This document shows positions 1 through 12,800 of a stretch of DNA of 12,800 nucleotides, piece by piece (position 1 is the stretch's first letter; each line of letters starts with the position of its first letter). The notes under the pieces are model-generated. The model did not search any database. It worked only from the letters and a program-made list of their open reading frames with translations, and had not been told where the DNA came from. The stretch covers positions 1-12,800 of the forward strand of contig MGER01000067.1 of the NCBI GenBank assembly GCA_001791465.1, written 5' to 3'. The stretch comes from Candidatus Uhrbacteria bacterium RIFCSPLOWO2_02_FULL_49_11 (GTDB lineage Bacteria > Patescibacteriota > Patescibacteriia > 2-02-FULL-49-11). The position numbers and the translations under genes were made by a program.

Positions 1-1
1 C

Positions 2-1048
2 TTTGTGCTCCCCGCGTATCATTATGAAATAGAGACTGCCATCACCCTCAATTTTTCCGCGGCAAGCCAAGACGCGCCGCCTGCTCTTCTCACGGTACAC
101 GTGAGCGGCGACACAGAAAAAACGCGACAGCGCACCTCTGCGCTGTTAACCTACGCGCTTACCGCACCCGATAACACGACCACAGCGGCGGGGGAAATAA
201 CATTAAAAAGCATTGATGAAACGCTCTATCTGTTATTTAAAAACCCGCGCGGTGCGCATGCCCCCTTCCAGGCATTTGAAGGAATGGGATGGATCAGATT
301 TGACGCCCGCAAGTGGTATGAAAGCGAGCATTTCCAGGCGCTTGCGCGCACCATGAACCTGACCATTCCTGAACAAAAATTGAATGCCCCCCGCTCGCCA
401 TCGCAAAAATCAACGGCAATAGCGCTCAAAGCGCTGCTCGTAAACCCCAAAACGTATACCGTGCGCGATGCGCCTTCTCGGTGGCAATTATATCGCAAGT
501 CATCGCCGCTCTCTTATTCATTTATTATCAACAAGCCAGAGCTGCGACAGATCACTTCGCTCCTCACCCGCATCATTGAAGATTTGTCGCCCTTGCCCGT
601 CGGAAATAAAGAATACGCGGTTGACTATGCGAATTCCGTCACAGGTGAAGTATGGATTGAACCGCGCACAAAAGATATCACCCAGATAATGATGCGGATT
701 GAGCCGTTTCCTTCTCTGCCCGATAGCCCATTCTCCATCGGCCCCATTGATATCAATGGGGCCTTCGCCCCTGCAGCCCAAACGTTCGCATGGAATGCTC
801 CTGCGGAACCCGTGGCATTCGAGCAGGTATTCACGACCCTCATGGATGAATGGTTCGCAGGCAGTTCTTTTGATAGCACCGCGCCAGTGCAAGAAAGCGC
901 GAAGGACACCGACGGAGATGGGCTGTCAGATTACGTGGAATTTATGCATTATAAGACAGACCACCTGAACCCTGACACTGACGGCGACGGGTATGACGAC
1001 GGCACGGAAATTCGGAATGGATATGGTCCGCTTATTCCTTACCTTTAA
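2..1048 (+). CDS. Surface/secreted protein with C-terminal calcium-binding (thrombospondin type 3-like) repeats, 5'-truncated
   Basis: The reading frame is open to the left edge. A GTG at 5 could act as a start, but the codon before it (TTT) is also open, so the true start probably lies outside the window. Counting from 5, about 347 residues are visible. The first 290 residues are a mixed, Pro/Thr/Ala-rich region I cannot assign to a family. The C-terminus carries two DxDxDG calcium-loop motifs: D301-T-D-G-D-G-L-S-D309, and D324-T-D-G-D-G-Y-D-D332 preceded by Asn-Pro. Such loops are typical of thrombospondin type 3 and dockerin-like repeats in exported proteins, and near-identical tails are common at the ends of CPR envelope proteins. 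The protein ends shortly after the second loop, so the C-terminus looks complete. Binding of Ca2+ and a location outside the membrane are inferred from the repeats. No signal peptide can be seen because the N-terminus is missing. The next gene is convergent. Confidence 0.72.
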   Translation, partial: FVLPAYHYEIETAITLNFSAASQDAPPALLTVHVSGDTEKTRQRTSALLTYALTAPDNTTTAAGEITLKSIDETLYLLFKNPRGAHAPFQAFEGMGWIRFDARKWYESEHFQALARTMNLTIPEQKLNAPRSPSQKSTAIALKALLVNPKTYTVRDAPSRWQLYRKSSPLSYSFIINKPELRQITSLLTRIIEDLSPLPVGNKEYAVDYANSVTGEVWIEPRTKDITQIMMRIEPFPSLPDSPFSIGPIDINGAFAPAAQTFAWNAPAEPVAFEQVFTTLMDEWFAGSSFDSTAPVQESAKDTDGDGLSDYVEFMHYKTDHLNPDTDGDGYDDGTEIRNGYGPLIPYL

Positions 1049-1142
1049 TACGAACTGCGTCTCTTCGTTTCGTACGCCGCCTGCCGCGGGTGCGAACGAG
1101 CCGGTAAGCAGAGATTGCATATGCGCAGTATTTTCCAGTCAA
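1049..1142. other. Short intergenic stretch with a weak hairpin
   Basis: This holds only a short inverted repeat, TACGAA (1049-1054) with TTCGTA (1069-1074), immediately after the stop codon of the upstream gene. It has no T-run, so it is at best a weak 3'-end structure. I see no gene here. Confidence 0.3.
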
Positions 1143-1198
1143 ATAATGATACCTCAACGATAGGGTCACCGATACTGCGATATTTCAATAAAGCGACT

Positions 1199-2452
1199 TT
1201 AAAAATTCTTTCTCAATTTTTCAAATAAGGCGATTTTTGCTTTTTTCATTCCCTCGGCAAATTCGTTGTCGCTCTTCGCCAGGGCAATCTTTTCCAACAT
1301 CTCGAAGGTGATCCCCGGCTTCAAATACTGAGCTGCGTTGGGGAGTGATTTTAGTCTGTCGTACGGCGTCACCCATAGGTTGTATTTCTTTTTCACTTTT
1401 CCATTCATTCCAACCTCGTCCTCGGCGAATCCGCACGTGCGATGATAGTTCAGATAGATGTTCATGTGCGTGCGGTTAAACTCATCGATGAACAGCGCCC
1501 ACGCGCTCGGTATGTGCCAGTGGCCGTAATGCTTCCTGATGATGCTGCCGTTCTTCGATTCCACGAGCGCGTTGTCATTGGTGTGCCTCGCTCTTGATTT
1601 AGTAAACCGTGCATAGAGCTTGGCGATCAACTCCGCCACCACGTGATTGATGAATTCAGAACCGTTGTCGGAGTGGAACTCCAGGATCACGAACGGATAC
1701 AGGCTGATGAGCGTTTCGACCACGGGGGCGAGTGCATACTCGGAAATATTCGGCACGATGGCGAGCATTTCCCACTGCGTCACCTCATCGACGATATTAA
1801 TGTGATACGCGCCTTTTTCGCCGTTTAAATCGCCGGAATGCACCGTATCTACCCGCAAATACCCAGGTTTTCCTTCTGGACACGGTTTCGCTCTCATCCC
1901 GATATTCACCGCCGTCGCTTTCGTCCGCGCCACCCATTTCGCCTTCGAGGAATTGTACTGGCGGTTTCCTCCTCGGATGTTGTAGATATGCGACGATGAG
2001 ATGCGAGAGATGGTTTGATACGCTTCATGATGGAACGTCTCGTACTCTCGTTTGAGGATGCTCCTCGTCGCTTGCCCGCTCAAGTGTCCGTGCGCGTAAT
2101 CGGTGTTGATCAAGAGGGCGATGTCTTCTGGGCCGTACATCACGCTGAAGCGATGGCGCTGCCGCGATCCGTAGCCAAGTTTCAATTCCCCGCGCCGTTT
2201 GTGTCGACGGATCAACCGCTTCGTTTGTATCTTCGAGAGGCCGGTGACTTTGCGGATGTAGGCGTTCACCACGGACTTTTCTCCCCGCCTCTTCAATCGG
2301 TGATATTTGAACTTCCTCAAGGTCTCGTCGATCCATTCATACCGCGCCTGCTTGTCGATGATGCAGAATCCGATCTCGGTCTTGAGTTGCACAAAGGACG
2401 CAAGTTGTTCTATCGTAGTGATGTGCGAGTCGAGCATAGTGATTGTAGGCAT
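1199..2452 (-). CDS. Transposase with integrase core (rve) domain, IS481/IS3-like
   Basis: The 417-residue protein catalyses cut-and-paste or copy-out transposition of its own element. The catalytic RNase H-fold triad is readable: D202 (in RVDTVHSGD), D262 (in HSDNGSEF) and E298 (in ALVESKNG). The second Asp and the Glu are separated by 35 residues, the classic DDE(35) spacing of retroviral-type integrases. About 120 residues before the core form a basic N-terminal region with helix-turn-helix character (VTGLSKIQTKRLIRRHKRRG), the likely binder of the terminal repeats. The C-terminal 80 residues are basic and helical. The frame is intact, so the element may be active. The ATG at 2452 has no clear Shine-Dalgarno sequence and sits in a 9-bp hairpin (2439-2460); an alternative ATG five codons later (MLDSH) is possible. 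The exact IS family is not fixed from sequence alone. Confidence 0.85.
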   Translation of the reverse strand: MPTITMLDSHITTIEQLASFVQLKTEIGFCIIDKQARYEWIDETLRKFKYHRLKRRGEKSVVNAYIRKVTGLSKIQTKRLIRRHKRRGELKLGYGSRQRHRFSVMYGPEDIALLINTDYAHGHLSGQATRSILKREYETFHHEAYQTISRISSSHIYNIRGGNRQYNSSKAKWVARTKATAVNIGMRAKPCPEGKPGYLRVDTVHSGDLNGEKGAYHINIVDEVTQWEMLAIVPNISEYALAPVVETLISLYPFVILEFHSDNGSEFINHVVAELIAKLYARFTKSRARHTNDNALVESKNGSIIRKHYGHWHIPSAWALFIDEFNRTHMNIYLNYHRTCGFAEDEVGMNGKVKKKYNLWVTPYDRLKSLPNAAQYLKPGITFEMLEKIALAKSDNEFAEGMKKAKIALFEKLRKNF

Positions 2453-2460
2453 ACAATCAC
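2439..2460 (-). promoter_or_regulatory. Hairpin over the transposase start codon
   Basis: GTGATTGTA (2439-2447) and TACAATCAC (2452-2460) form a perfect 9-bp stem around a GGCA loop. The transposase ATG (minus strand, 2452-2450) lies at the stem-loop junction. Hairpins that occlude the start are a known way for insertion sequences to avoid expression from outside transcripts, so this may limit translation. A protein-binding operator is the alternative. Confidence 0.45.
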
Positions 2461-2589
2461 AGTATGGCGGCCCGCACCTTTTTGTTTAACGCCCGTCTTC
2501 CCGTCGCTCAATGATTATCCACAGATTGGGGTATCATTATGCGGTGGAATGGGGTTTCAAGATAGGTATCATTTTGTATTGTACAAGAC

Positions 2590-2619
2590 TTGCGCTTGCT
2601 TTCCTTATAATTATATGCT
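2590..2619 (+). promoter_or_regulatory. Candidate promoter for rpsO
   Basis: TTGCGC (2590-2595) and TATGCT (2614-2619) are separated by 18 bases, giving an acceptable sigma70-type promoter. An overlapping TATAAT lies at 2606-2611, but no good -35 box is at the right distance for it. Transcription would start near 2626, giving a leader of about 87 bases before rpsO. Confidence 0.45.
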
Positions 2620-2712
2620 ACATTCTTAACCGCTTATTACTAGGGCGACAGACTGGGCGTATCGTAATATGAGCGCACGAACGGCTCGGCTCTCGCGACA
2701 GAAAGGCCTCTT

Positions 2713-3078
2713 ATGCTCACGAAAAAAAAGAAAGACGCGGTTATCAAAAAATTCCGCACCCACGAACATGACACCGGCTCCCCCGAGGTGCAAATTGCCG
2801 TGCTCACGGAAGAAATGAAAGAACTCTCCGAGCACCTGAAACTCCACCGCCATGATTTTTCATCCCGCCGCGGCCTGTTGCGGAAGGTCAGTCTGCGGCG
2901 GCGGCTCCTCCGTTATCTCCAGCGGGAAAATGAAGCGCGATATGAGGAACTCGCCAAGAAGCTGAAATTGAAACGGCTCCCCGCGTTTACGAAAGACGCC
3001 ACTCTGAAGCAGATGGACGACGAACCGTTTATTGAAACCCCCGTAGGGGAAGAAGGGCCGAAGGAAGAGACAAAATAA
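2713..3078 (+). CDS. rpsO: 30S ribosomal protein S15 (uS15) with C-terminal extension
   Basis: S15 is a primary-binding 30S subunit protein that contacts the three-way junction of 16S helices 20-22 and forms bridge B4 with 23S rRNA. Residues 1-89 match the family: TGSPEVQIAVLTEEM, then the LKLHRHDFSSRRGLL signature in which the conserved His/Asp/Ser residues contact RNA, then the RRRLLRYL helix. Standard bacterial S15 has about 89 residues; this one has 121. The extra 32 residues form an acidic, Pro-containing tail (DDEPFIETPVGEEGPKEE) of unknown role, probably disordered. AAGG seven bases before the ATG at 2713 serves as ribosome binding site. pnp follows 238 bases downstream on the same strand, the usual rpsO-pnp order. 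An intervening terminator suggests the two are only partly co-transcribed. Confidence 0.96.
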   Translation: MLTKKKKDAVIKKFRTHEHDTGSPEVQIAVLTEEMKELSEHLKLHRHDFSSRRGLLRKVSLRRRLLRYLQRENEARYEELAKKLKLKRLPAFTKDATLKQMDDEPFIETPVGEEGPKEETK

Positions 3079-3085
3079 ACTTAAG

Positions 3086-3109
3086 CCTCCTCCGCACGGG
3101 GGAGGTTTT
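3086..3109 (+). terminator. Rho-independent terminator after rpsO
   Basis: CCTCCTCC (3086-3093) pairs with GGGGGAGG (3098-3105) in an 8-bp GC-rich stem with one T-G wobble and a GCAC loop, followed by TTTT. It starts 8 bases after the rpsO stop. It probably reduces readthrough into pnp, as the terminator between these genes does in other bacteria. Confidence 0.8.
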
Positions 3110-3140
3110 CGCGTAATCATTATTTATATAATAATTTAAG

Positions 3141-3300
3141 CGCCTGACCATCAGACACCTTAGACCACGGCCTGACGCGAAGCGTCAGGAATAACAAATG
3201 TCAAAGTTCAAATATCAAATTTGAAATTTGGATTTTGTCATTTGAGCTTCCGCTCCTCAAGGAGCGGTTTATGGGGTCTAATCGCTTGACGGTCAGGGCA
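3141..3300 (+). repeat. Nested palindromic repeat element in the rpsO-pnp spacer
   Basis: Three layers of inverted repeat are present. Outer arms: CCTGACC (3143-3149) with GGTCAGG (3291-3297), and TTAGACC (3160-3166) with GGTCTAA (3275-3281). Inside are two GC-rich hairpins: CCTGACGC/GCGTCAGG with a GAA loop (3171-3189), and CCGCTCC/GGAGCGG with a TCAA loop (3250-3267). Between them lies an AT-rich imperfect palindrome (about 3193-3245) built from CAAAT/ATTTG words. The hairpin, AT palindrome, hairpin architecture is repeated in the 23S helix 68 insertion at 11571-11737. It may be a MITE-like mobile repeat. As RNA, it would place a large stem just upstream of the pnp ribosome binding site, where PNPase is known to autoregulate in E. 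coli. Confidence 0.6.
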
Positions 3301-3316
3301 TACGGAAGGAAAAGTT

Positions 3317-5560
3317 ATGGATCCGAAACAATATACGTTCGAGTTGGGAGGAAAGACCCTGACGGTAGAACAAGGGCGTCTCGCGGCCCAGGCACATGGC
3401 GCGGTGACCATGCGGTACGGTGACACCGTCGTGCTCGCCACTGCAGTGATCTCAGACAAGGAACGGGATAAAGTAGATTACTTTCCGCTCCTGGTGGATT
3501 ATGACGAAAAGCTCTATGCGGCCGGGAAGATAAAAGGCTCTCGGTTTATTAAGCGTGAAGGGCGTCCTTCGGATGAAGCAATTCTTACCAATAGGCTGGT
3601 GGACCGCTCTATCCGCCCGCTGTTTAACGAACGGATGCGGCGCGATGTGCAAGTCTACCTCTCCACATTGTCTTTTGATCAGGAGAATGACCCTGACATT
3701 GCGCTTCTGAATGCCGCGTCGCTCGCACTTGCGCTTTCTCCCATCCCGTGGGACGGCCCCATCGCAGGCGTGCGGGTAGGGAGAGTAAAAGGCGAATGGG
3801 TTTTGAATCCCACCTACAAAGCGCGGGAGGAAAGCGAGCTTGATCTGGTCATTGCGGGCACCGACGAAAAAATAGTGATGATCGAAGCGGGAGCGAATGA
3901 AGCGTCCGAAGAGGTGATGTCTGATGCTATCGAATTCGGCTGGAAACATTTGCGCGAGCTCTTGCGGTTCATGCGTGAGGTGGCCGATGCGCACGGCTTA
4001 ACAAAACGGAATGATTGGATTCCTAAAGTTTCCGCAGAAGATGAAGCGAACCTCGCCGTATTGAAGGAAAAAGCGAAGAAACTACTGGAAGGAAAATTAG
4101 AAAAACTATTAACCTTATCGTCGAAGGCGGAGCGCGCGGCAGAAGAAACGCGTCTCAAGCAGATGCTCGATGACGCATTTAAGGATGACAATGAGGTAAC
4201 CAAGGAAGATCGCGCTGAAGTGGAGAACGTCTTCCATGCACTATGGACGGAAGCAGTCACTGCGCGCGTTTTTCATGACGCTAAACGGGTGGACGGAAGG
4301 GCCTTTGGGGAAATCCGTCCTTTGAGCATTGAGGTGGGCTTATTGCCGCGCACGCACGGTTCTGCCCTGTTCACGCGCGGGGAAACACAAGCGCTCTCGG
4401 TCGTCACTCTCGGTTCCCCTTCTTCCGAACAAACCCTTGATACCATGGAGGAATCAGGGAAGAAACGCTACATGCACCATTACAATTTTCCCGGGTTTTC
4501 CGTAGGCGAGGTTTCACCCCTGCGGGGAGTTTCAAGGCGCGAAATCGGGCACGGCGCGCTTGCGGAAAAAGCGATTCTTCCGGTACTCCCGAAAGATAAG
4601 GAAAAATTTCCCTATACCATCCGCGTCGTATCGGATATCATGTCATCGAACGGCTCCTCATCCATGGCTTCCACGTGCGGCTCGTCCCTTTCTCTTATGG
4701 ATGCGGGAGTGCCTATCACCGCGCCTGTCGCAGGCATCGCCATGGGCATCTGGACCACCCCTGACGAATCGCAGTATAAAATCCTCACCGACCTCCAAGG
4801 CATCGAAGACCATGACGGAGGCATGGATTTCAAGGTGGCAGGCACCGTGAAGGGCATTACCGCGATCCAGCTCGACGTGAAAATTTCAGGCCTTACCATG
4901 CCCATGATTCAGGAAACTTTCACCCAAGCGCGCAAAGGGCGCTTGGAGATCCTTGAAAAAATGAATAGCATCATTGCCGCGCCTCGGCCTGAAATGTCTC
5001 CTTATGCGCCGCGCATTTACCCTTTGCAGATTAATCCTGACAAGATCCGCGACGTGATCGGCCCTGGAGGAAAGGTCATCAATGAAATTATCGCCAAAAC
5101 CGGCGTGCAAATTGATATCGAAGACTCAGGGCTCATCATGGTCACCGCGCTCTCCAAAGAAAGCGCGGAAAAAGCGCTTGATTGGATAAAAAATTTGACC
5201 CGCGAAGTCCAGGTGGGCGAAGTGTTCCAAGGCAAAGTGACGAGGATCCTCGATTTCGGCGCGTTCGTGGAAGTGCTCCCCAAACAAGAAGGCTTGGTGC
5301 ATATTTCCCAGCTCGCGCCTTATCGCGTGAATCAAGTGACGGACATCGTCAATATCGGCGACGTCATCCCGGTGAAAGTAATTGAAATTGACGAGATGGG
5401 AAGAATTAATCTGTCCTTGAAAGACACTGATTTCAATTTCCCGCCGCCTCCTGCCGGAGGATTTATGGCGCCCTCTGATAACGGCTCCCGACACCTCAAC
5501 CGCGGCGGCCGCCCCGGCGCCCATGGCCGCGACCGTGGCAACTTCGACCGCCACCGCTAA
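3317..5560 (+). CDS. pnp: Polyribonucleotide nucleotidyltransferase (PNPase)
   Basis: PNPase degrades RNA 3'-to-5' by phosphorolysis, using phosphate and releasing nucleoside diphosphates, as a cytoplasmic homotrimer. The 747 residues show the full family order: first RNase PH domain (about 5-220), helical linker (about 235-320), second RNase PH domain (about 325-560), KH domain with GPGG at 582-585, and S1 domain (about 630-705). Catalytic residues are present: the NGSSSMAS phosphate-binding motif (445-452) and D498, D504, K506 (E. coli D486, D492, K494). The first-domain RNA-binding loop is F77-I-K-R80 where E. coli has FFRR, so one Arg is replaced by Lys. After S1 comes a 40-residue Pro/Gly/Arg/His-rich tail with RGG-like steps, a plausible extra RNA contact. 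GGAAGGAAAAG just upstream of the ATG is the ribosome binding site. Confidence 0.97.
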   Translation: MDPKQYTFELGGKTLTVEQGRLAAQAHGAVTMRYGDTVVLATAVISDKERDKVDYFPLLVDYDEKLYAAGKIKGSRFIKREGRPSDEAILTNRLVDRSIRPLFNERMRRDVQVYLSTLSFDQENDPDIALLNAASLALALSPIPWDGPIAGVRVGRVKGEWVLNPTYKAREESELDLVIAGTDEKIVMIEAGANEASEEVMSDAIEFGWKHLRELLRFMREVADAHGLTKRNDWIPKVSAEDEANLAVLKEKAKKLLEGKLEKLLTLSSKAERAAEETRLKQMLDDAFKDDNEVTKEDRAEVENVFHALWTEAVTARVFHDAKRVDGRAFGEIRPLSIEVGLLPRTHGSALFTRGETQALSVVTLGSPSSEQTLDTMEESGKKRYMHHYNFPGFSVGEVSPLRGVSRREIGHGALAEKAILPVLPKDKEKFPYTIRVVSDIMSSNGSSSMASTCGSSLSLMDAGVPITAPVAGIAMGIWTTPDESQYKILTDLQGIEDHDGGMDFKVAGTVKGITAIQLDVKISGLTMPMIQETFTQARKGRLEILEKMNSIIAAPRPEMSPYAPRIYPLQINPDKIRDVIGPGGKVINEIIAKTGVQIDIEDSGLIMVTALSKESAEKALDWIKNLTREVQVGEVFQGKVTRILDFGAFVEVLPKQEGLVHISQLAPYRVNQVTDIVNIGDVIPVKVIEIDEMGRINLSLKDTDFNFPPPPAGGFMAPSDNGSRHLNRGGRPGAHGRDRGNFDRHR

Positions 5561-5580
5561 GATAAGAATCGTGCCATTCA

Positions 5581-5608
5581 AAAACACGGCGCCCACGCGC
5601 TGTGTTTT
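5581..5608 (+). terminator. Terminator after pnp
   Basis: AAAACACGGCG (5581-5591) and CGCTGTGTTTT (5598-5608) form an 11-bp stem with one G-T wobble and a 6-base loop. The 3' arm ends in TTTT. It starts 20 bases after the pnp stop, and its A-run/T-run ends would also work in the opposite direction. Confidence 0.75.
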
Positions 5609-5612
5609 GATA

Positions 5613-5640
5613 TTGACAATAAAATTAAGGAGACTATATT
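5613..5640 (+). promoter_or_regulatory. Promoter of the HD / phosphohistidine-regulator operon
   Basis: A consensus TTGACA (5613-5618) and a TATATT (5635-5640) with a 16-base spacer lie right after the pnp terminator. AAGGAG (5627-5632) is inside the spacer. If this promoter is used, the transcript would start at or just after the ATG at 5645, making the mRNA nearly leaderless. If transcription comes from further upstream, AAGGAG would be the ribosome binding site, 12 bases from the ATG. The two uses exclude each other. Confidence 0.6.
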
Positions 5641-5644
5641 TAAA

Positions 5645-6238
5645 ATGTTATCTGAATACATTATGTATACAAATTGTATGTATCATCATTATAAAGGCAA
5701 TCAACTCCCTCGTTCAGACGCAATACAAAAGTTAGTGGTAGAAAGGATTTTTGCAAATCCCCTTACCGACGACCAGCGAGAGAACTCTAAAGTATGGGAG
5801 CTCAAACATAGTAGCAGTTGTATACAAATAGGAAGACTGCTTGCCATAAAACGCGGGCTCAACGTTGAGTTAGCCGAAACTATTTGCGCGCTTCACGACA
5901 TCTATGCCATTGATACCGGCCATTATGATGAACATGCGCAGAAAGGAGCAGAAATCGCCAAGGGGCTCCTGATTGCCACGGGTCAATTCAGCGAACAAGA
6001 GATCAACATCATCTGCGATGCGATACGAGCCCATAGCGATAAACAAATCTATAGTGACAGTTTATACAGTGAAATGATCAAGGATGCAGATATATTTGAT
6101 TGTTCGCTTTATGAGGGGACGAAAAAATACTACGAAAAACACAAACCAATAGAGGTGCGGAGAGAATACTACCATCGGATCCAAAAGGTCAGAGAAGAGT
6201 TAGGGTTGCCGCCAGATATTCAATTTACTGTGAAATAA
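5645..6238 (+). CDS. HD-domain metal-dependent phosphohydrolase
   Basis: The 197-residue protein has the HD-superfamily metal ligands: H55 (LKHSS), H84-D85 (ALHDIYAID) and D149 (IKDADIFD), plus GHYDEHAQKG, a typical additional His pair. HD enzymes hydrolyse phosphomono- or phosphodiesters of nucleotides with divalent metals; the substrate here cannot be read from sequence. The length and single domain fit stand-alone nucleotide phosphohydrolases rather than RelA/SpoT or HD-GYP proteins. In-frame ATGs also exist at 5663 and 5678. 5645 was chosen because AAGGAG precedes it, but the first 11 residues (MLSEYIMYTNC) do not look conserved, so a later start is possible. The next gene begins 4 bases after the stop, so the two are almost certainly one operon and the HD enzyme probably acts with the regulator described there. 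Confidence 0.85.
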   Translation: MLSEYIMYTNCMYHHYKGNQLPRSDAIQKLVVERIFANPLTDDQRENSKVWELKHSSSCIQIGRLLAIKRGLNVELAETICALHDIYAIDTGHYDEHAQKGAEIAKGLLIATGQFSEQEINIICDAIRAHSDKQIYSDSLYSEMIKDADIFDCSLYEGTKKYYEKHKPIEVRREYYHRIQKVREELGLPPDIQFTVK

Positions 6239-6242
6239 TCAT

Positions 6243-7328
6243 ATGACTTCAGACATCCTCTACGCGCTTACCTCATCTCATGCACGCGCACGGCTGCTTG
6301 AATATTTTACAAATTTTCAGGGTGAAGTCCAATTTCGTGAACTTCAGCGGAACCTGTCTATTAATCCGCGCCAGCTTACGCTGCAGCTAAAAAAATTGAA
6401 AGAAATCAATTTTATACATGAACGGACAGAGGGGAAAAGAAAATTTTATTGTGCAAATATACACACCTCCTATTTTTCACCCCTTCAACAATTTGTCAAA
6501 AGCCTAAAAGTCGACCATGGGGAATGGTTCCGCTGGGAGCGCGCGGGCACTATCCATCACCTTTATATCGTACTTGAAGCTGCGATGCGCCCGATGTATG
6601 AATATTTCAGGTTATCATGGCCTTTAACGCTGATTATTTTTAAAGGAGAAAACGCGCTATGGTGCAATAGGATGGAAGATCTATCTCATCTGGGTGAAAA
6701 AATTATACAATGGTACCAACAAACAAATGTCAAAAAATATAACGACGATATCCAGACACAAACAAAAAAACTTGAACGTGTATATTTTTCAATACAATCA
6801 GCCGATGTGCCCAAGTTGCCTATAAAGCAACTGGGTAACCTCTACCAAGAACTCCATGATGAGTACACGCGGTGGTTTGCCTTATTATGGACCACTGAAC
6901 CGGTCGCTATCAGAGCGGAAGAAGTGTTAAAGATGGAATTGAAAGACGCTTCCGAGCGCGAATTCGCGCTTTTGACTTCTACCACTCATGTATCGTTCAC
7001 GCAAGAAATTGAAGATTCGCTACAAGCTATTGTCAGCGCTCTCCGACGCACGCATGGCAGCCCACACGATCCACGTATACTCGCAATGATTGATGCATTC
7101 CAGCAAAACTATTTCTGGATGCATAACAATTATTTTGAAACCAAGGTGCTCCAAAGGGAACATATAATATTGGAAATAAAAAAACGACTCATGGCACCGG
7201 TCACAGAGGGAGGATATGCCCATGTCGCGAGTGCGCAAAAACTCGCGCTTATGGAAAAATTAAGACTAGGAGCACACACACGGGCGCTCATTGAGATAAG
7301 CGACCACTTTATTTATCTCCAAGATTAG
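6243..7328 (+). pseudogene. Winged-helix / phosphohistidine-domain protein, N-terminal part, cut off by a transposon
   Basis: The 361 residues are the 5' portion of a gene split by the IS element at 7326. Residues 1-88 form a winged helix-turn-helix of ArsR type: SSHARARLLEYF as helix 1, VQFRELQRNLSINPRQLTLQLKKL as helices 2 and 3, then the wing ERTEGKRKFY. This suggests sequence-specific DNA binding. Residues about 95-361 are mainly helical, with no ATP-grasp or TIM-barrel motif; they resemble the linker before the swivelling domain in PEP-synthase-like proteins. The reading frame ends FIYLQD followed by TAG, and that TAG is the first three bases of the transposon end, not a native stop. The gene follows the HD gene by 4 bases. 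The truncated product keeps the DNA-binding domain but loses the phosphohistidine domain, so it might still bind DNA without its control domain. Confidence 0.85.
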
Positions 7329-7377
7329 GACTTACGCGTTTGACTGCTAATAGTATGTTTTAGTTTTGCACTGGTTT

Positions 7378-7425
7378 GTGAGATAATAAGGATAGAAATG
7401 GTCACCTTAAAATAAATAATCTCAC
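7378..7425 (+). promoter_or_regulatory. Inverted repeat upstream of the IS4-like transposase
   Basis: GTGAGAT (7378-7384) pairs with ATCTCAC (7419-7425), and an inner AAGG/CCTT pair (7388-7391, 7404-7407) extends the structure. It ends 6 bases before the transposase ATG, which has no Shine-Dalgarno sequence. It could lower translation from transcripts entering from the interrupted host gene, or bind transposase. Confidence 0.4.
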
Positions 7426-7431
7426 ACGCCT

Positions 7432-8415
7432 ATGCAAAAACAAAAATGTTCGCTCACCTTGTACAGTAATTTCCTCATTGCTAACCATAGTCGCTATTCG
7501 GGCTGCGAACTGGCGCGGGTGGCGCCATCGCAGAACCTGCACCATGATGCCGTGTCGCGCTGGCTCTCCGCTTCCAAGTTTCAGCCGACCGAGCTGCTCA
7601 ACCAGGTGAAACATCTGATCACTCCGGCCACCGGCTATCTGCTTGTCGATGACACCACCTTGGACAAAAGGTATTCACGCGCTAATGAACTGGCCAAGCA
7701 ACAATATAGCGGAGACGAGCGCGGTCTGGTAAATGGCATCAATCTCGTCAACCTTTTGTGGACAGACGGCGATAAGTTCGTACCCGTAGATTACCGTATT
7801 TACCGGAAAGGCACTGCCGACCACCAGGATAAAACCAAACATGACCACTTCCGCGATATGTTAAAAAGAGCTGTAAATAAAGGGTTTTCCAAACAATTGC
7901 CGGTACTATTTGATGCCTGGTACGCTAGTATTGGAAACTTAAAGTTCATCCGTTCTCTCAAGATGCATTTTATCTGCAGCATAGCCTGCAATCGTCAGGT
8001 TAGTGTTATCAAAGGCACCTATCTTTCAGTCCAGGACCTTGACTTTACCAAAGAACAGGTACACAAGGTCTGGCTTAAAGAATTTGGGTTTGTCCTGGTA
8101 GCTCAGACAGTCACCGCGGGCGGTGACGTGACTTACCTGATGACCAACAACTTGAGCCTGGACTACGACACCTTCGTGGACTGTTTTAAGCAGCGCTGGC
8201 ATATTGAGGAATTCCACCGTGGCATCAAACAAGCCACCGGCATCGAGAAGTGTTACTCCATTCAGGCAGAATCTCAGAAAACGCACATCTTCGCCGCCTT
8301 TACCGCCTTCATTAAATTGGAAAAGAATCGTTTGTTCAGTAACATAAGCTGGTACGAACAGAAAGCTATGATTCCTCGCACGGCTGTAGCCAACTATATG
8401 TGGGCAAACGCGTAA
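7432..8415 (+). CDS. IS4/IS701-like DDE transposase
   Basis: The 327-residue protein moves the surrounding element. It shows the IS4-superfamily (DDE_Tnp_1-like) catalytic pattern: D73/D74 in LLVDDTTLDKRYS, D161 in VLFDAWYAS, and E259/E260 in FKQRWHIEEFHRGIKQATG, where the RW-IE-FHR-IK signature carries the catalytic Glu and the following basic residues. The lengths between motifs and the sequence after the first Asp (QYSG, LVNGINLVNLLW, PVDYRIY) resemble IS701-type transposases known from cyanobacteria and other bacteria. The frame is complete, with no frameshift or missing catalytic residue, so it is likely functional. The start at 7432 (MQKQKCS) has no clear ribosome binding site and follows an inverted repeat. 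The TAA stop lies within the right terminal repeat. The stop is in the same frame as the downstream half of the interrupted gene. Confidence 0.93.
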   Translation: MQKQKCSLTLYSNFLIANHSRYSGCELARVAPSQNLHHDAVSRWLSASKFQPTELLNQVKHLITPATGYLLVDDTTLDKRYSRANELAKQQYSGDERGLVNGINLVNLLWTDGDKFVPVDYRIYRKGTADHQDKTKHDHFRDMLKRAVNKGFSKQLPVLFDAWYASIGNLKFIRSLKMHFICSIACNRQVSVIKGTYLSVQDLDFTKEQVHKVWLKEFGFVLVAQTVTAGGDVTYLMTNNLSLDYDTFVDCFKQRWHIEEFHRGIKQATGIEKCYSIQAESQKTHIFAAFTAFIKLEKNRLFSNISWYEQKAMIPRTAVANYMWANA

Positions 8416-8427
8416 GTCCTACAAGAT

Positions 8428-9033
8428 ATCAGAAAAAAGTGGATGATGAAGACCGCACATTATCTAGAACTCCTTTTAGCGGAGGCGGGGAAAAGGTCTC
8501 ATATGAGCCTCCATCAAATGAGATATACCCTGCCCGATGAATTCATGCCGATACTCCACGGTCACATTCCCCATGTAAGCCACAGAATGAAAAATGCAAT
8601 ACTCGTATTCACGGAGGGTGCGCTCCATGGAAAAATATTCGCAGGGGATCCAGCGTTACGTGAAGAACAGAAATATTTCCCATCAAATAATCCAATTTCT
8701 TCTTCTCCACATGGCGTGCTGAAAGGAAGAGTTGCGTGTCAAGGGAAAGCAATAGGCACGGTTAAGGTGCTCATGAATCCAAGCGAAGCGTATAAAGTTA
8801 ATCATGGCGATGTATTGGTAACCTCAATGACCTCTCCCGATTTCATCACTTCGATCAGGAAGTGCGTTGCAATAGTGACCAATGAAGGAGGATTAACCTG
8901 TCATGCCGCCATAATTTCACGCGAATTGAATATCCCTTGTATCATCGGTACAAAAAATGCCACGCAATTCTTGAAGGATGGAGATAAAGTGGAAGTAAAC
9001 GCTGATGAAGGAGTGGTCACGGTGCTAGAATAA
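8428..9033 (+). pseudogene. C-terminal part of the interrupted gene: PEP-utilising-enzyme mobile (phosphohistidine) domain
   Basis: This is the 3' remainder of the gene split by the IS element. It continues in frame from the second CAAGAT copy as IRKKWMMKTAHYLELLL. An in-frame ATG at 8443 could allow a 196-residue product by re-initiation, but no good ribosome binding site precedes it. The last 110 residues (from GVLKGRVACQGKAIGTVKVL) are the swivelling phosphohistidine domain of PEP synthase, PPDK and enzyme I. The signature G-G-L-T-C-H-A-A-I-I-S-R fits the PEP-utilising-enzyme phosphohistidine pattern exactly, with the phospho-acceptor His at residue 154 of this fragment (520 of the restored 562-residue protein). 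In characterised enzymes this domain carries phosphate between an ATP site and a PEP/pyruvate site; neither partner domain is encoded here. The restored protein would join a DNA-binding winged helix to this phospho-carrier. Confidence 0.88.
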
Positions 9034-9111
9034 TGAGGGGTCACGCATAAATTGGAACTGTGCTGTAAAGTGTTCACTTTTAATTCGTAGATGACAATCT
9101 ATAACGTTGTG

Positions 9112-9140
9112 TTGACAAGGAGATAACTCAAGGTTATACT
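9112..9140 (+). promoter_or_regulatory. Strong sigma70-type promoter upstream of 23S rRNA
   Basis: A perfect TTGACA (9112-9117), a 17-base spacer and TATACT (9135-9140) make this the best promoter in the window. Transcription would start near 9147. It is 79 bases after the stop of the preceding gene and about 420 bases before the mature 23S start. A terminator at 9306-9331 lies in between, so the transcript either stops there or reads through into 23S. Confidence 0.8.
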
Positions 9141-9224
9141 AAACGTGATTTTAGCCATCTCATTTTGGTTTTACACACCGCCACTGATAAATAGGCACTA
9201 ATGTTAGCCTAATTTTATTAAGAA

Positions 9225-9278
9225 ATGGAAACTTATATGAATGCGAATCAGACAGTAACCTATGTCTTAAGCGGCTAA
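9225..9278 (+). CDS. Possible 17-residue leader peptide (METYMNANQTVTYVLSG)
   Basis: The ORF starts with ATG at 9225 (a second ATG is at 9237) and stops with TAA at 9276-9278. Its last codons, TTA AGC GGC, contain the first AAGCGG, the strand that would compete with the terminator. A ribosome finishing this ORF would cover that strand and let the terminator form. The ribosome binding site is weak (AAGAA), so translation is uncertain. No similarity to a known protein is seen. It is listed because its stop coincides with the switching strand. Confidence 0.3.
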   Translation: METYMNANQTVTYVLSG

Positions 9279-9305
9279 AGGACTCGTGTGAGGTTTATGT
9301 GTGCG

Positions 9306-9331
9306 ACCGCTTTGAGACGAAGCGGTTTTTT
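9306..9331 (+). terminator. Rho-independent terminator in the 23S leader
   Basis: ACCGCTT (9306-9312) and AAGCGGT (9320-9326) form a 7-bp stem with a TGAGACG loop, followed by a run of six T. An upstream AAGCGG (9269-9274) can compete for the same CCGCTT. Confidence 0.78.
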
Positions 9332-9359
9332 GATACTTTTAAAATTAAATACTTTATTA
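9330..9359 (+). promoter_or_regulatory. Weak candidate promoter for 23S rRNA downstream of the terminator
   Basis: TTGATA (9330-9335) lies 17 bases from TTTATT (9353-9358), a 4-of-6 match to a -10 box. If it is real, 23S could be transcribed independently of the terminator. The surrounding DNA is very AT-rich, so chance matches are likely. Confidence 0.3.
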
Positions 9360-9364
9360 ATCCC

Positions 9365-9421
9365 CATTCTTCTGCAAGGCGGTGCGCCCATTTTATGCGC
9401 ATACTACCTGGGAGAAGAATG
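9365..9421 (+). other. Long hairpin in the 23S leader
   Basis: CATTCTTCT (9365-9373) pairs with AGAAGAATG (9413-9421) in a 9-bp outer stem, and TGCGC (9383-9387) pairs with GCGCA (9397-9401) inside. There is no T-run, so it is not a terminator. It may be a processing or folding element of the 23S precursor. The stretch 9422-9532 after it shows no gene. Confidence 0.45.
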
Positions 9422-9532
9422 AAGTAAGAGAAGAAGTGAGCGTTCATTGACAATTGAGAGGTAATAAACAAGCGTCAATTTAATATTGCATTTCGCAAAA
9501 GAGAAATGAAGTATCTCTCGTCAATTCAAAAT

Positions 9533-9568
9533 ATTCCCAAAGAGATTACCTGAATACTCTTTGGGAAT
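9533..9568 (+). other. Perfect 12-bp hairpin at the 5' edge of 23S rRNA
   Basis: ATTCCCAAAGAG (9533-9544) and CTCTTTGGGAAT (9557-9568) are perfect complements around a 12-base loop. The 3' arm touches the estimated mature 23S 5' end. It is probably a precursor structure or RNase cleavage site; no T-run follows. Confidence 0.55.
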
Positions 9569-11570
9569 CCGTCATGAGAAGGGCACATGGTGGATGCCTC
9601 GATACGCGAGCGGCGATGAAGGACGTAGCAGCCTGCGATAAGCCTCGGGGAGGTGGCAAGCAACCTTTGATCCGGGGATCTCCGAATGGGGGAACCCCTC
9701 CGGCGCGCATAACGTCGGAGATCCTTGCCTGAATTTATAGGGCAAGGAAGCGCACCCGGTGAAGTGAAACATCTCAGTAACCGGAGGAAAAGAAAATAAC
9801 ATATTATTCCCTTAGTAGCGGCGAGCGAAAAGGGAACAGCCTAAACTGTAGAGGTTCCCATGCTTTAATTCTCTTACTCCGCAAGGAGTAAGAGATGAAG
9901 AGTGTGGACGGCTTACAAGGCCTTATACTTATACAGGGTTGTAAGACAAATCTATACCGGAGCTTGTAAATCCGGGAGGAGCCTATGAACAAGACTTCCC
10001 TAGTGGAATCCCGTGGAATACGGGAGCCAGAGTGGGTGAGAGCCCCGTACGCGAAAGGGGTTTTGTGCTCCTTAGAATTGTTCTTAAGTACGTCGGGACC
10101 CGTGAAATCCCGGCGGAACCTGGGCCGACTATGGCCTAAGGCTAAATACGCTCCGTAATCGATAGTGAACAAGTACCGTGAGGGAATGGTGAAAAGCAGC
10201 CCGGGAGGGCGATGAAATAGTATCTGAAACCATGTGCTTACAAGGAGTCAACGCCCGCCGAAATTTTCGTAAGGAAATTTAGGTGGGTTATGGCGTGCCT
10301 ATTGAAGAATGAGCCAACGAGTTTGTCTGCGCTGCTTGTCGAATCCCGATCAATCGGGAGAAGGCATAGTGAAAGCGAGGCTTCAACAGCCGTTATGGCA
10401 CCGTAGACAAGACCCGAAGCCGGGTGATCTAGTCATGGACAGGGTGAACCACGTAGAAATACGGGGGGAGGCCCGAACCCACCAGCCGTGCAAAACTGGG
10501 GGATGATCTGTGACTAGGGGTGAAATTCCAATCGAACTCGGGAATAGCTGGTTCTCCTCGAAATAGCTTAAGGGCTAGCCTCTCTATAAACCGTCCGGGG
10601 GTAGAGCTACTGAATGGTTCGGCATGGCGCAAGCCTAGTCGAGCCAACCAAACTCCGAATACCGGCCGGCATGATAGGGGGAGTCAGACTATGGGGGCGA
10701 AGCTCCATTGGTCACAAGGGGAAGAGCCCACGACTGCGATATAAGGTCCCTAAATCCAAGCTAAGTGTAAAAGGGAGTGTAGTGACTTCGACAACTAGGA
10801 GGTTGGCTTAGAAGCAGCCATCCTTTCAAGATAGCGTAACAGCTCACTAGTCAAGTCGCTATGCACCGAAAATGTACCGGGGCTAAGCTTGGTACCGAAT
10901 GTGCAGACCTGTCAGTGCTTTGCACTGGCAGCGTGGTAGAGGAGCGTCCCGTATGCCGTAAAGTCAGACCCGTGAGGGCTGGTGGAGCGTACGGGAGTGA
11001 GAATGTTGGCATAAGTAGCAGGAAGGAAGGTGAGAATCCTTCCCACCGCAAGCCTAAGGGTTCCCCGACAACGATGATCGGTCGGGGGTGAGGCGGTCCT
11101 AAGGCGAGGCCGACAGGCGTAGCCGATGGAAAAGCTGGTTAATATTCCAGCCCCTTGTTTATATTTGTATGGTGCTGACGCATCTTAGTGTGGGATCCTG
11201 CTTTGGTTATGTAGGTTGTTGTCTCGATTTATCGGGATGACTGGAAACAAAGCCTTCGGGCAGCGTGAACTTCCGTAATAAGGTGCCGGGAAAAGGTACC
11301 ATGCGTTAAGTATAGGCAGGTCCGTACCGCAAACCGACACAGGTGGGCGAGCATAAGCGTGCTCAAGGTGGACGAGAGAACCCTCGTTTAGGAACTCGGC
11401 AATTCAGTGGCCGTAACTTTGGAATAAGGCCTCCCCCGATTTATCGGGGGCGCAGTGAATGACCTCAAGCGACTGTTTACCAAAAACACAAGTCCCTGCT
11501 TCAAGCCGCAAGGCGACGTATAGGGGCTGATGCCTGGCCAGTGTCAGAACGTTAAGGGGAGGGGTGAACA

Positions 11571-11737
11571 CCGATGCTTCGCATCGGGAATGACCAATAA
11601 CCAATTTCCAATTTCCAAACAATATCCAATGAACAAAATTCAAATGACCAAAACTTGTTTTGAATTTTGAATTTGGAGTTTCGAATTTGTTTGGGATTTA
11701 GTGTTTGGGATTTGGGATTTCCGACGCGGGGCGTCGG
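11571..11737 (+). repeat. Palindromic repeat inserted in helix 68 of 23S rRNA
   Basis: Two GC-rich hairpins, CCGATGC/GCATCGG with a TTC loop (11571-11587) and CCGACGC/GCGTCGG with a GGG loop (11721-11737), flank about 133 AT-rich bases. The left arm repeats CCAAT/CCAAA words and the right arm their complements (TTTGGGATTT), so the whole folds as one long imperfect hairpin. Normal 23S sequence resumes at GCTTTGAACCGAAGCG (about 11742). No group I core and no ORF is present, so it is not a third intron. The architecture matches the rpsO-pnp spacer repeat (3171-3267). It most likely remains in the rRNA as an expansion of helix 68 or is excised by RNase. Confidence 0.65.
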
Positions 11738-11782
11738 CCGTAGCTTTGAACCGAAGCGCTGATGAACGCCGGCGATAACTAT

Positions 11783-12514
11783 GAGTGACGATTGTAGTTA
11801 TCTCAATAAATCTAGCTATATGCGGGAACATCTACTCAAGGTGCAAGTACTCGTCTCGATGAGGGACAGTAAAAAGTTTGCATCAGTTTTTTTGAGAACG
11901 GTAGACAATCCGCAGGAAAGGCTCTTGATATGCAAGACAATATCCAATGGTTGAAGCAAATTTCACCTGCGATAGGATACTATCTGGCGGGGTTTGCAGA
12001 TGGGGAAGGGAGTTTTAATGTTTCACTTCGCCGTCGTGATGATCATGCGATGGGATGGCAGGTGGTACTTACGTTCAACGTGTCACAGAAGGACAGCCGA
12101 ATCCTGGCGTACTTTAAAAGATACCTCGGATGCGGGAGACTCCAAGAACGACAGGACGGCGTGTACTACTATGTGGTATCAAATCCACGTTCGATTATCG
12201 AGCGCATCATTCCATTTTTTGAAAAGTATCGTTTTCTCTCCTCAAGGAAGTTATTTAATTTTGCGATTTTTAAACAGATCGCAATGTTGGTTGAAAAGAA
12301 TCAACACCTCACACAGGAAGGACTGAATAAGATTGTCCAGCTTCATGAGAAATTGAATGAAGGACGGGGAAGGAAACGAAAGTATAACGTGAGTGATTAT
12401 CAACAATCACTCCAAGAGAATCCTCAGAGACTATACGCTAGACCTTTGCCGCGCGCGAAGCGTAGCGAGGATGATATAGTCCGATCTCATGGGTGACCAT
12501 GAGTTAACATCACG
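11783..12514 (+). other. Group I intron 1 in 23S rRNA (after U1917), encoding a LAGLIDADG endonuclease
   Basis: The 732-nt intron splits helix 69. The upstream exon ends in U (11782) and the intron ends in G (12514), as group I introns require. P1: exon GATAACTAT pairs with the guide GTAGTTATC (11794-11802), with the U-G wobble at the splice site. P3: TCTAGC (11811-11816) with GCTAGA (12437-12442). P4: TGCGG (11821-11825) with CCGCA (11910-11914). P5: TCTAC (11831-11835) with GTAGA (11901-11905). P6: CTCTTG (11922-11927) with CAAGAG (12413-12418). P7: GACTA (12429-12433) with TAGTC (12477-12481). P9: CTCATGG/CCATGAG with a GTGA loop (12486-12503). Position 1917 also hosts an intron in Coxiella 23S rRNA. 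The complete core predicts self-splicing. Confidence 0.92.
11930..12496 (+). CDS. LAGLIDADG homing endonuclease encoded in intron 1
   Basis: The 188-residue protein has one LAGLIDADG helix, L19-A-G-F-A-D-G-E-G27 followed by SF, in which E26 is the metal-binding catalytic residue. Single-motif enzymes of this size act as homodimers, cut an intronless allele at a pseudo-palindromic site and so spread their intron; the expected target is the uninterrupted helix 69 sequence. The alternating beta-strand and helix pattern continues through QVVLTFNVSQKD and IIPFFEKYRF. The gene lies in the P6 loop. The ATG at 11930 follows AGGAAAGG at a usable distance, and that site is part of the P4-P6 core. The last 28 codons (12413-12496) also form the 3' half of P6, then P7, P3, P8 and P9, and the stop TGA lies in the P9 tetraloop. 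The very basic C-terminus (RGRKRKY) may bind nucleic acid. The frame is intact. Confidence 0.93.
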   Translation: MQDNIQWLKQISPAIGYYLAGFADGEGSFNVSLRRRDDHAMGWQVVLTFNVSQKDSRILAYFKRYLGCGRLQERQDGVYYYVVSNPRSIIERIIPFFEKYRFLSSRKLFNFAIFKQIAMLVEKNQHLTQEGLNKIVQLHEKLNEGRGRKRKYNVSDYQQSLQENPQRLYARPLPRAKRSEDDIVRSHG

Positions 12515-12528
12515 AATCGTCCTAAGGT
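12515..12528 (+). rRNA. 14-nt 23S micro-exon (E. coli 1918-1931)
   Basis: AATCGTCCTAAGGT is the only exon sequence between the two introns. It supplies the 3' strand of helix 69 and the universally conserved CCTAAGGT. Joined to upstream GGCGATAACTAT it restores helix 69 with G1909-C1921 and A1910-U1920, which are C-G and G-C in E. coli. Both introns must be removed for the decoding-site bridge (B2a) to form. Confidence 0.88.
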
Positions 12529-12761
12529 TTTCTAAATCAGAAGGAAACGATGATTTAGAAAAGGATTGGGACGATTCGGAAAAAGTTTAGCTGCCTCGTT
12601 TCACAGTAATGTGAAATTGGTCCAAAACATGGCTGTATGCTGGGAACCCGATATGCTTCGGGCAATCAGCAGGGAAGTCCTTTGTGACCCCTCAGAGACC
12701 ACACGCCGTGCTCCCAGTTAATTGGGATGAAGATATGGTCCATCGCATAAGGGAAGCGATA
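12529..12761 (+). other. Group I intron 2 in 23S rRNA (after U1931), no ORF
   Basis: The 233-nt intron has no protein gene. The core is readable. P2: TTTCAC/GTGAAA (12599-12604, 12611-12616). P3: CATGGC (12628-12633) with GCCGTG (12705-12710, one wobble). P4: TGCTG (12638-12642) with CAGCA (12667-12671). P5: CCCGA (12647-12651) with TCGGG (12658-12662). P7: GACCA (12697-12701) with TGGTC (12736-12740). P8: TCCCA (12712-12716) with TGGGA (12723-12727). P9: ATCGC (12742-12746) with GCGAT (12756-12760). The boundaries come from the conserved exon CCTAAGGT + AGCGAAATTCC. They make the last intron base A instead of G. The 5' junction lies in a long hairpin (12513-12578). Position 1931 is a known intron site in Thermotoga 23S. 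Confidence 0.82.
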
Positions 12762-12800
12762 AGCGAAATTCCTTGTCGGGTGAGTTCCGACGTGCACGAA

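Follow-up and report, generated by a model that had tools for sequence, protein, structure and literature searches.

Group I introns at positions L1917 and L1931 of a single 23S rRNA gene were reported for a bacterium in 2007 and also occur in algal plastids, so that the pair itself is not new. Synechococcus sp. C9 carries introns at L1917, L1931 and L2593 in one 23S gene (Haugen 2007, PMC1995217), the plastid rrl gene of the diatom Navicula vanseea contains introns at L1917 and L1931 (PMC11019260), and that of the green alga Tydemania has introns at 1917, 1923 and 1931 (PMC4487195). A survey of rRNA insertions in CPR bacteria counted as many as 16 insertions in one gene and described LAGLIDADG_1 proteins at positions 1917 and 1931, with 64 of 66 Saccharibacteria insertions being short and free of introns (Tsurumaki 2024, PMC11270868). 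Exon skipping between neighboring group I introns has been reported in Coxiella burnetii, across a 34-nt exon, and in phage Twort, across a 23-nt exon (PMC10136302); a published table lists a C. burnetii 23S intron at L1951 (PMC1995217).

The sharing of one short exon by several self-splicing introns without its loss has been little studied, as far as we found, and a partial literature search yielded no report that we recognized of ordered splicing of neighboring rRNA group I introns by pairing with the neighbor. Here we analyze a window of 12,800 nucleotides, the start of a contig of 28,130 bases (C67) in a draft genome of Candidatus Uhrbacteria (967 kb, 73% complete), in which introns at L1917 (intron 1) and L1931 (intron 2) flank a very short exon. 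The initial annotation had called the presence of both sites remarkable; the pair is indeed there, but Synechococcus sp. C9, the plastids and eight of 47 hits in our own survey of the class deprive it of novelty, which may lie instead in how the mini-exon is shared.

Results

A 23S rRNA gene with at least five group I introns

The 23S gene of the window begins near 9570, and a 5S gene was found downstream of it on the contig. Numbering was anchored on E. coli rrlH, with GGCCGTAACTAT ending at 1917, GTCCTAAGGT ending at 1931 and AGCGAAATTCC starting at 1932, which places U1917 before intron 1 and U1931 before intron 2. At least five group I introns interrupt this gene, after 1917, 1931, 2262, 2500 and 2596. 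Past the window, group I matches lie at C67:12995-13263 (88.4 bits), 14160-14450 (30.9 bits, below the cut-off) and 14546-14829 (52.3 bits), and exon boundaries place the three introns there after 2262, 2500 and 2596 (L005:3956-4930, 5171-5460 and 5557-5838); the first of these is 975 nt long and encodes a 209-aa LAGLIDADG_2 protein (2.5e-42). A run of N (C67:12801-12863) lies inside the 23S gene directly after the final base of the window, and at this point the contig lacks the part of the 23S that spans E. coli 1970 to roughly 2170. Some group I match was found in 123 of the 285 genomes of the class sample.

Near helix 68 the 23S gene carries an A/T-rich insert (window 11590-11725) with CCAAT and GGGATTTGG motifs, in which there was neither a group I match nor, with the repeat finder, an inverted repeat; it looks like a cleaved intervening sequence or a small repeat. 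The motif CAATTTCCAATTTCCAA is present on the opposite strand within the 23S match of L022. In the 9.5 kb upstream of the 23S gene (window 1-9569) no 16S or tRNA gene was found; this region encodes two transposase-like ORFs, one at 1199-2452 with a weak rve match and a DDE one at 7432-8415, as well as a protein with a PEP-utiliser mobile domain. A plasmid search found none.

Two distinct group I introns

Table 1. Features of the two introns and their exons in the window.
Feature	Sequence	Position	Strand	Basis
5' exon end: 5' side and loop of helix 69, U1917 last; pairs with intron 1 guide	GATAACTAT	11774..11782	+	E. coli numbering
Intron 1, group I, site L1917, 732 nt, final base G12514		11783..12514	+	
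Intron 1 P10 strand, complement of exon 2 AATCGTC	GACGATT	11787..11793	+	
Intron 1 P1 guide, G.U with U1917	GTAGTTATC	11794..11802	+	
Intron 1 P3	TCTAGC / GCTAGA	11811..11816 / 12437-12442	+	Covariation
Intron 1 P4	TGCGG / CCGCA	11821..11825 / 11910-11914	+	Relatives' alignment
Intron 1 P5		about 11831-11835 / 11901-11905	+	Read from sequence
Intron 1 gene, 188-aa LAGLIDADG_1 putative homing endonuclease		11930..12496	+	Pfam PF00961, 2.6e-22
Intron 1 P7	GACTAT / ATAGTC	12429..12434 / 12476-12481	+	
Intron 1 P9 hairpin	CTCATGG-GTGA-CCATGAG	12486..12503	+	Read from sequence
Exon 2, 14 nt	AATCGTCCTAAGGT	12515..12528	+	E. coli 1918-1931
Intron 2, group I, site L1931, 233 nt, geneless, final base A12761		12529..12761	+	Rfam; exon conservation sets boundaries
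Intron 2 extended-P1 upper stem	TTTCTAAATCA / TGATTTAGAAA	12529..12561	+	Local fold
Intron 2 extended guide; its partners are exon 2 and, in intron 1, C12513 and G12514	GGGACGATTCG	12568..12578	+	
Intron 2 P3	CATGGC / GCCGTG	12628..12633 / 12705-12710	+	Rfam alignment
Intron 2 P4	TGCTG / CAGCA	12638-12642 / 12667-12671	+	Rfam alignment
Intron 2 P5 hairpin		12647-12662	+	Rfam alignment
Intron 2 P7, with P8 between its strands	GACCA / TGGTC	12697-12701 / 12736-12740	+	Rfam alignment; 3' strand read from sequence
Intron 2 P9 hairpin	TCGC-ATAAGGGAA-GCGA	12743..12759	+	Fold

Our analysis agrees with the initial annotation on two distinct group I introns after U1917 and U1931, in their coordinates (11783-12514 and 12529-12761), sites and P7 pairs. 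A tandem duplication, against which the initial annotation had also decided, is rejected because the cores differ. The covariance search suggested at the time as a check succeeds for intron 2, whose conserved core scores 54.6 bits against Rfam Intron_gpI (RF00028, over 1-253, E 8.7e-12; cut-off 50); for intron 1 it returns only weak matches below the gathering score, at 12226-12503 (21.2 bits, E 0.0085) and 11821-11967 (12.7 bits, E 2.9), because the endonuclease gene splits the match in two. At the cut-off the search finds one intron of the two, an outcome that the initial annotation had listed as counting against its reading.

Judged from its sequence, intron 1 is nevertheless a group I intron, with a P3/P7 core accompanied by P4, P1 and P10 and with a terminal G. 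Its guide GACGATTGTAGTTATC (11787-11802) forms 16 of 16 pairs with the ligated exons, GATAACTAT joined to AATCGTC, including a G.U pair at the splice site, a match not reached in any of 20000 shuffles that permuted the first 40 bases of the intron singly. Across 16 distinct L1917 relatives the covariation of the whole structure is 0.243 against 0.130 when shuffled, a value that none of 500 shuffles reaches. Double-sided changes occur in five of the six P3 pairs, with 100% of cells paired; in P4 one of five pairs covaries, and in P7 none does and four are invariant, with 97.5-100% of cells paired across P3, P4 and P7. The 3' strand of P4 was not found in two of the 16. The U.G pair at the 5' splice site is present in all 16, as judged from the anchors. 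For P10, 75.9% of cells are paired, with double changes in two of seven pairs. Shifting the partner strand by one to three columns lowers pairing in these relatives from 91.8% to 25-48%. The compared blocks were excised with the conserved anchors GTAGTT, TGCKGGAA, CTCAGAGAC and AGTCC, and the invariance of P1 and P7 is therefore partly built in; P3 was assigned by position, with a single base fixed by the pattern. The blocks exclude L021 and L050 (both without a recognizable P7 block) and L115 (identical to L082), and the L1917 5' exon pattern missed L112 and L099.

The gene within intron 1 runs from about P6, through the core, into P9. Its reading frame carries the motif LAGFADGEG, and the nearest solved relative by sequence is I-SmaMI (5.9e-45). 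A protein search of the genome contigs with the endonuclease gave 38 pattern stretches, among which no relative was confirmed.

If the mature 23S rRNA is canonical, intron 2 lacks a terminal G and has A12761 as its last base; G is the last base of the four remaining introns in the gene. Among 47 hits in class genomes, 30 have G immediately upstream of the L1931 3' exon, 13 have A and four have C; the 17 with a base other than G are unusual for group I introns. The L1917 introns of two paired genes, L033 and L044, likewise end in A. One 23S group I intron of Coxiella burnetii is reportedly also without a terminal G, and the 23S intron of that species other than the one at L1951 lies at L1917. 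In the fold of intron 2, U1931 is paired with A; bulging one base allows a U.G register to be drawn. Splicing after U1926 was considered, from the pairing of AATCGTCCT with GGGACGATT ending in U.G, and rejected: opposite this base, 24 of 31 distinct rows have G and seven have A, and AAGGTAGCG would not be restored on the 3' side.

Types of L1931 intron among relatives

A pattern for the L1931 3' exon that does not allow T directly before it, VAGCGAAATTCCTTGTCG, matches in 47 of 380 class genomes, and eight of these 47, the window included, carry introns at both sites. The L1931 introns fall into two kinds. In type B, CUAAGGU pairs with GCCUUAG, with U.G at 1931; in type A, to which the window belongs, a hairpin directly 3' of the exon is followed by a strand that pairs with AAUCGUCCU. 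The 47 hits comprise 29 single and five paired introns of type A, and eight single introns (by pattern) plus L057 (assigned by eye) and three paired introns of type B; L054 could not be assigned to a type, and L176 lies outside the classification. With the added singles L067, L178 and L179 and the added pairs L112, L148 and L177, type A amounts to 32 single and eight paired introns. In 31 distinct rows of 39 (L148 is excluded from alignment A2 for an indel in its guide), seven of the 13 pairs of the type A P1 helix change on both sides, and covariation is 0.246 against 0.128, which none of 500 shuffles reaches.

Pairs were also sought in other samples, with prevalences that are lower bounds because the pattern misses exon variants: it returned zero of one for G035, which has a pair with the exon AATTGTCC. 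The pair pattern was found in three of 379 phylum genomes, the window's own among them, and in two of 86 genomes of the order of G237; the L1931 3'-exon pattern was found in nine of 111 genomes of the order of G290, five of which had already been seen. The one match among ten genomes of the order of G180, L182, lacks 23S flanks and was excluded as chance. A record search gave 105 stretches; among the 80 listed, 11 have 23S flanks by reading and 69 were dropped as chance. These 11 are not independent, since L082 matches L145 over the compared stretch and comes from one isolate with L115; L104 and L069 are alike in the portions displayed, though not over the whole compared stretch. Similar pairs also occur in records titled Nomurabacteria, Parcubacteria and Saccharibacteria. 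Three records of the last title (L099, L145 and L146) carry L1917 and L1931, with group I matches above the cut-off in L099 and L145, in contrast to the mostly short, intron-free Saccharibacteria insertions of the CPR survey.

Intron 2 is short in all six type A pairs measured (those other than L112 and L148), at 233-345 nt, and 12 of the 32 single type A introns are below 400 nt. The L1917 partner in the six measured pairs is 716-769 nt long in five and 249 nt in L035.

Two guides overlap on one mini-exon

The strand GACGAUU is common to both introns of the window, used by intron 1 for P10 and by intron 2 for its extended P1. Both guides target AAUCGUC of exon 2, and P10 of intron 1 and P1 of intron 2 are mutually exclusive because they use the same seven exon bases. 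In intron 2, the partner of exon 2 (AAUCGUCCU) is the strand GGGACGAUUCG, which also pairs beyond the exon with CG, the final two bases of intron 1. For CG plus AATCGTCC, ten of ten partners are found within the first 70 bases of intron 2, a result matched by 17 of 20000 shuffles. Calculated energies are -8.3 kcal/mol for P10 alone, and -19.2 and -12.2 kcal/mol for the intron 2 guide with the unspliced and the spliced junction, respectively. The hairpin of 12500-12590 folds at -35.2 kcal/mol, and when 11700-12800 is folded as a nested structure, 12513-12523 are paired with the guide of intron 2 at 0.97-1.0; this fold is no fair contest of P1 against P10, as it is unable to hold both together.

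There appear to be two ways of dealing with the mini-exon. Type B pairs divide it, the L1931 intron using CUAAGGU only and leaving AAUCGUC free for P10, and these pairs need no order because the 14 bases can be split into seven for P10 and seven for P1. In type A the guides would compete. The guide of single type A introns tends to extend onto CUAU (1914-1917), and that of paired ones tends to reach the end of the still unspliced intron 1.

The intron 2 guide tends to match its neighbor

The base facing U1917 in single type A introns is A in 22, G in eight, T in two and C in none (n=32). In paired type A introns this position faces the last base of intron 1, and it is C in five, A in two and T in one (n=8), the T of L148 being an indel effect. 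The last base of intron 1 opposite the C is G in four of the five; in L033 the C stands opposite an A, fitting neither context. The excess of C in pairs (5/8 vs 0/32) has a Fisher probability of 8.5e-5, uncorrected for kinship.

In a swap test of the eight pairs, the guides bind their own intron 1 ends with -132.9 kcal/mol in total, against about -119 kcal/mol for swapped ends (p 0.003-0.005, n=8, for ends of 8, 10 or 12 bases). The probability is 0.003 without L033 and L148, 0.006-0.010 without L047, and 0.011-0.015 without the window; it weakens to 0.025-0.036 without L035 and to 0.06-0.07 without L112 and L177. When 19 other ends are tried (seven of type A and 12 distinct ones of type B), none does as well as the own end in the window, L035, L112 and L177; the own end is equalled or beaten by four in L050, seven in L047, 11 in L148 and all 19 in L033. 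The unspliced context is the stronger in six of the eight pairs, only just so in L177 (-18.6 unspliced vs -18.1 spliced). The spliced context fits better in L033 (-12.4 unspliced vs -14.1 spliced) and L148 (-6.9 vs -12.6). Of the 32 single type A introns, 31 favor the context in which they lie in the genome over the mean of the intron 1 ends. The best duplexes reach into intron 1 by CG and two bases past a bulge in the window, by G and five bases past a bulge in L035, by three bases in L047 and L050, by four past a mismatch in L112, and by six, with one exon base bulged, in L177; in L033 they do not enter it.

On a tree of intron 2 built with the guide columns removed, the paired state changes seven times and the C five times, and the paired state is not clustered (190 of 500 shuffles are as low); the tree is weakly resolved, with seven of 37 inner branches starred and with L112 and L148 filling less than half of the columns. 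Over five independent contrasts the C agrees with pairing in an average of 3.1 and opposes it in none, which is not significant in a sign test (median p 0.25) that lacks power. The hypothesis was drawn from the window, L035, L047 and L050 and is thus partly post hoc; among the pairs fetched later, two (L112 and, only just, L177) are for it by energy and one (L148) against.

Discussion

The initial annotation had supposed that the splicing order may be fixed, and comparative pairing now suggests a direction. We favor, at slightly better than even odds (a probability of roughly 0.55), that intron 2 leaves first and intron 1 after it, and that the guide of intron 2 has adapted to its neighbor. 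Both group I ribozymes, at L1917 and L1931, would have to splice for helix 69 to be restored. In a fresh transcript the local P1 hairpin of intron 2 would form first, hiding the terminal G of intron 1 and its P10 partner; splicing of intron 2 would then free exon 2 and the terminal G for the second step of intron 1. Homing probably brought intron 1 into a gene in which the L1931 intron was already present, and the guide of the latter would have adapted afterward; such a history fits the shortness of intron 2 and the sizes of the L1917 partners.

The most serious competitor, which we consider rather unlikely, is that the introns splice independently in either order, with the guide bases beyond exon 2 being incidental or inherited. 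Independence is possible in type B pairs, where AAUCGUC is free for P10, and it is helped by the two of eight type A pairs that misfit the unspliced context and by a contrast test that lacks power. It is at odds with the outcome of the swap test, with a C that occurs in five of eight pairs and in none of the 32 singles, with changes on several branches of the tree, and with an exon 2 that both guides of the window want.

Alternatively, the C opposite 1917 could block U1917 as a cryptic 5' splice site for intron 2 once intron 1 is lost, averting the skipping of exon 2. This has precedent in the exon skipping reported between neighboring group I introns of Coxiella and phage Twort (PMC10136302), and the G at this position in eight of 32 single introns would give a U.G pair at 1917. 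Such a role would account for the C. It leaves unexplained the additional pairing with intron 1 in L035, L112 and L177, and likewise the swap test, since the compared ends share the last G in seven of eight; we regard it as improbable. That one intron is degenerate or the assembly chimeric, with a retained segment or a dead gene, is very improbable. In its favor are the run of N after the window, a genome completeness of 73% and the final A of intron 2; against it, both guides match the gene's own exon variant AATCGTC, the core pairings and the endonuclease frame are intact, and A or C precedes the 3' exon in 17 of 47 class hits.

Splicing of intron 2 before intron 1 could also be part of a broader pattern, which we put forward tentatively and hold with less than even confidence. 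In such a hierarchical pair, intron 2 would have come to recognize the unspliced end of its neighbor within its own substrate helix, hiding the 3' splice site of intron 1 and enforcing a downstream-first order, and the adaptation would have arisen several times as L1917 introns invaded genes bearing an L1931 intron. If true, neighboring selfish ribozymes adapt to each other, and their splicing order is written in base pairs.

Among the described systems, the plastid rrl genes of Navicula vanseea and Tydemania share the tandem sites with the window; they differ in being organellar and in having introns with endonuclease genes, and the accessible parts of these reports make no mention of neighbor pairing (PMC11019260, PMC4487195). 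The CPR survey resembles our locus in its LAGLIDADG_1 proteins at 1917 and 1931 and in its many insertions per gene, and in the sections available it does not mention neighbor-intron pairing or splicing order (PMC11270868). In Coxiella burnetii two group I introns likewise flank a short exon in the same part of the 23S gene, but that exon, at 34 nt, is longer (PMC10136302) and the second site is L1951, not L1931 (PMC1995217). Synechococcus sp. C9 has the same two sites in one bacterial gene, and the gene in its L1917 intron runs from P6 through the core into P9, the layout seen in intron 1 here; however, both of its introns contain a gene, whereas intron 2 here is geneless, and its third site is L2593, whereas the further sites here are 2262, 2500 and 2596 (PMC1995217).
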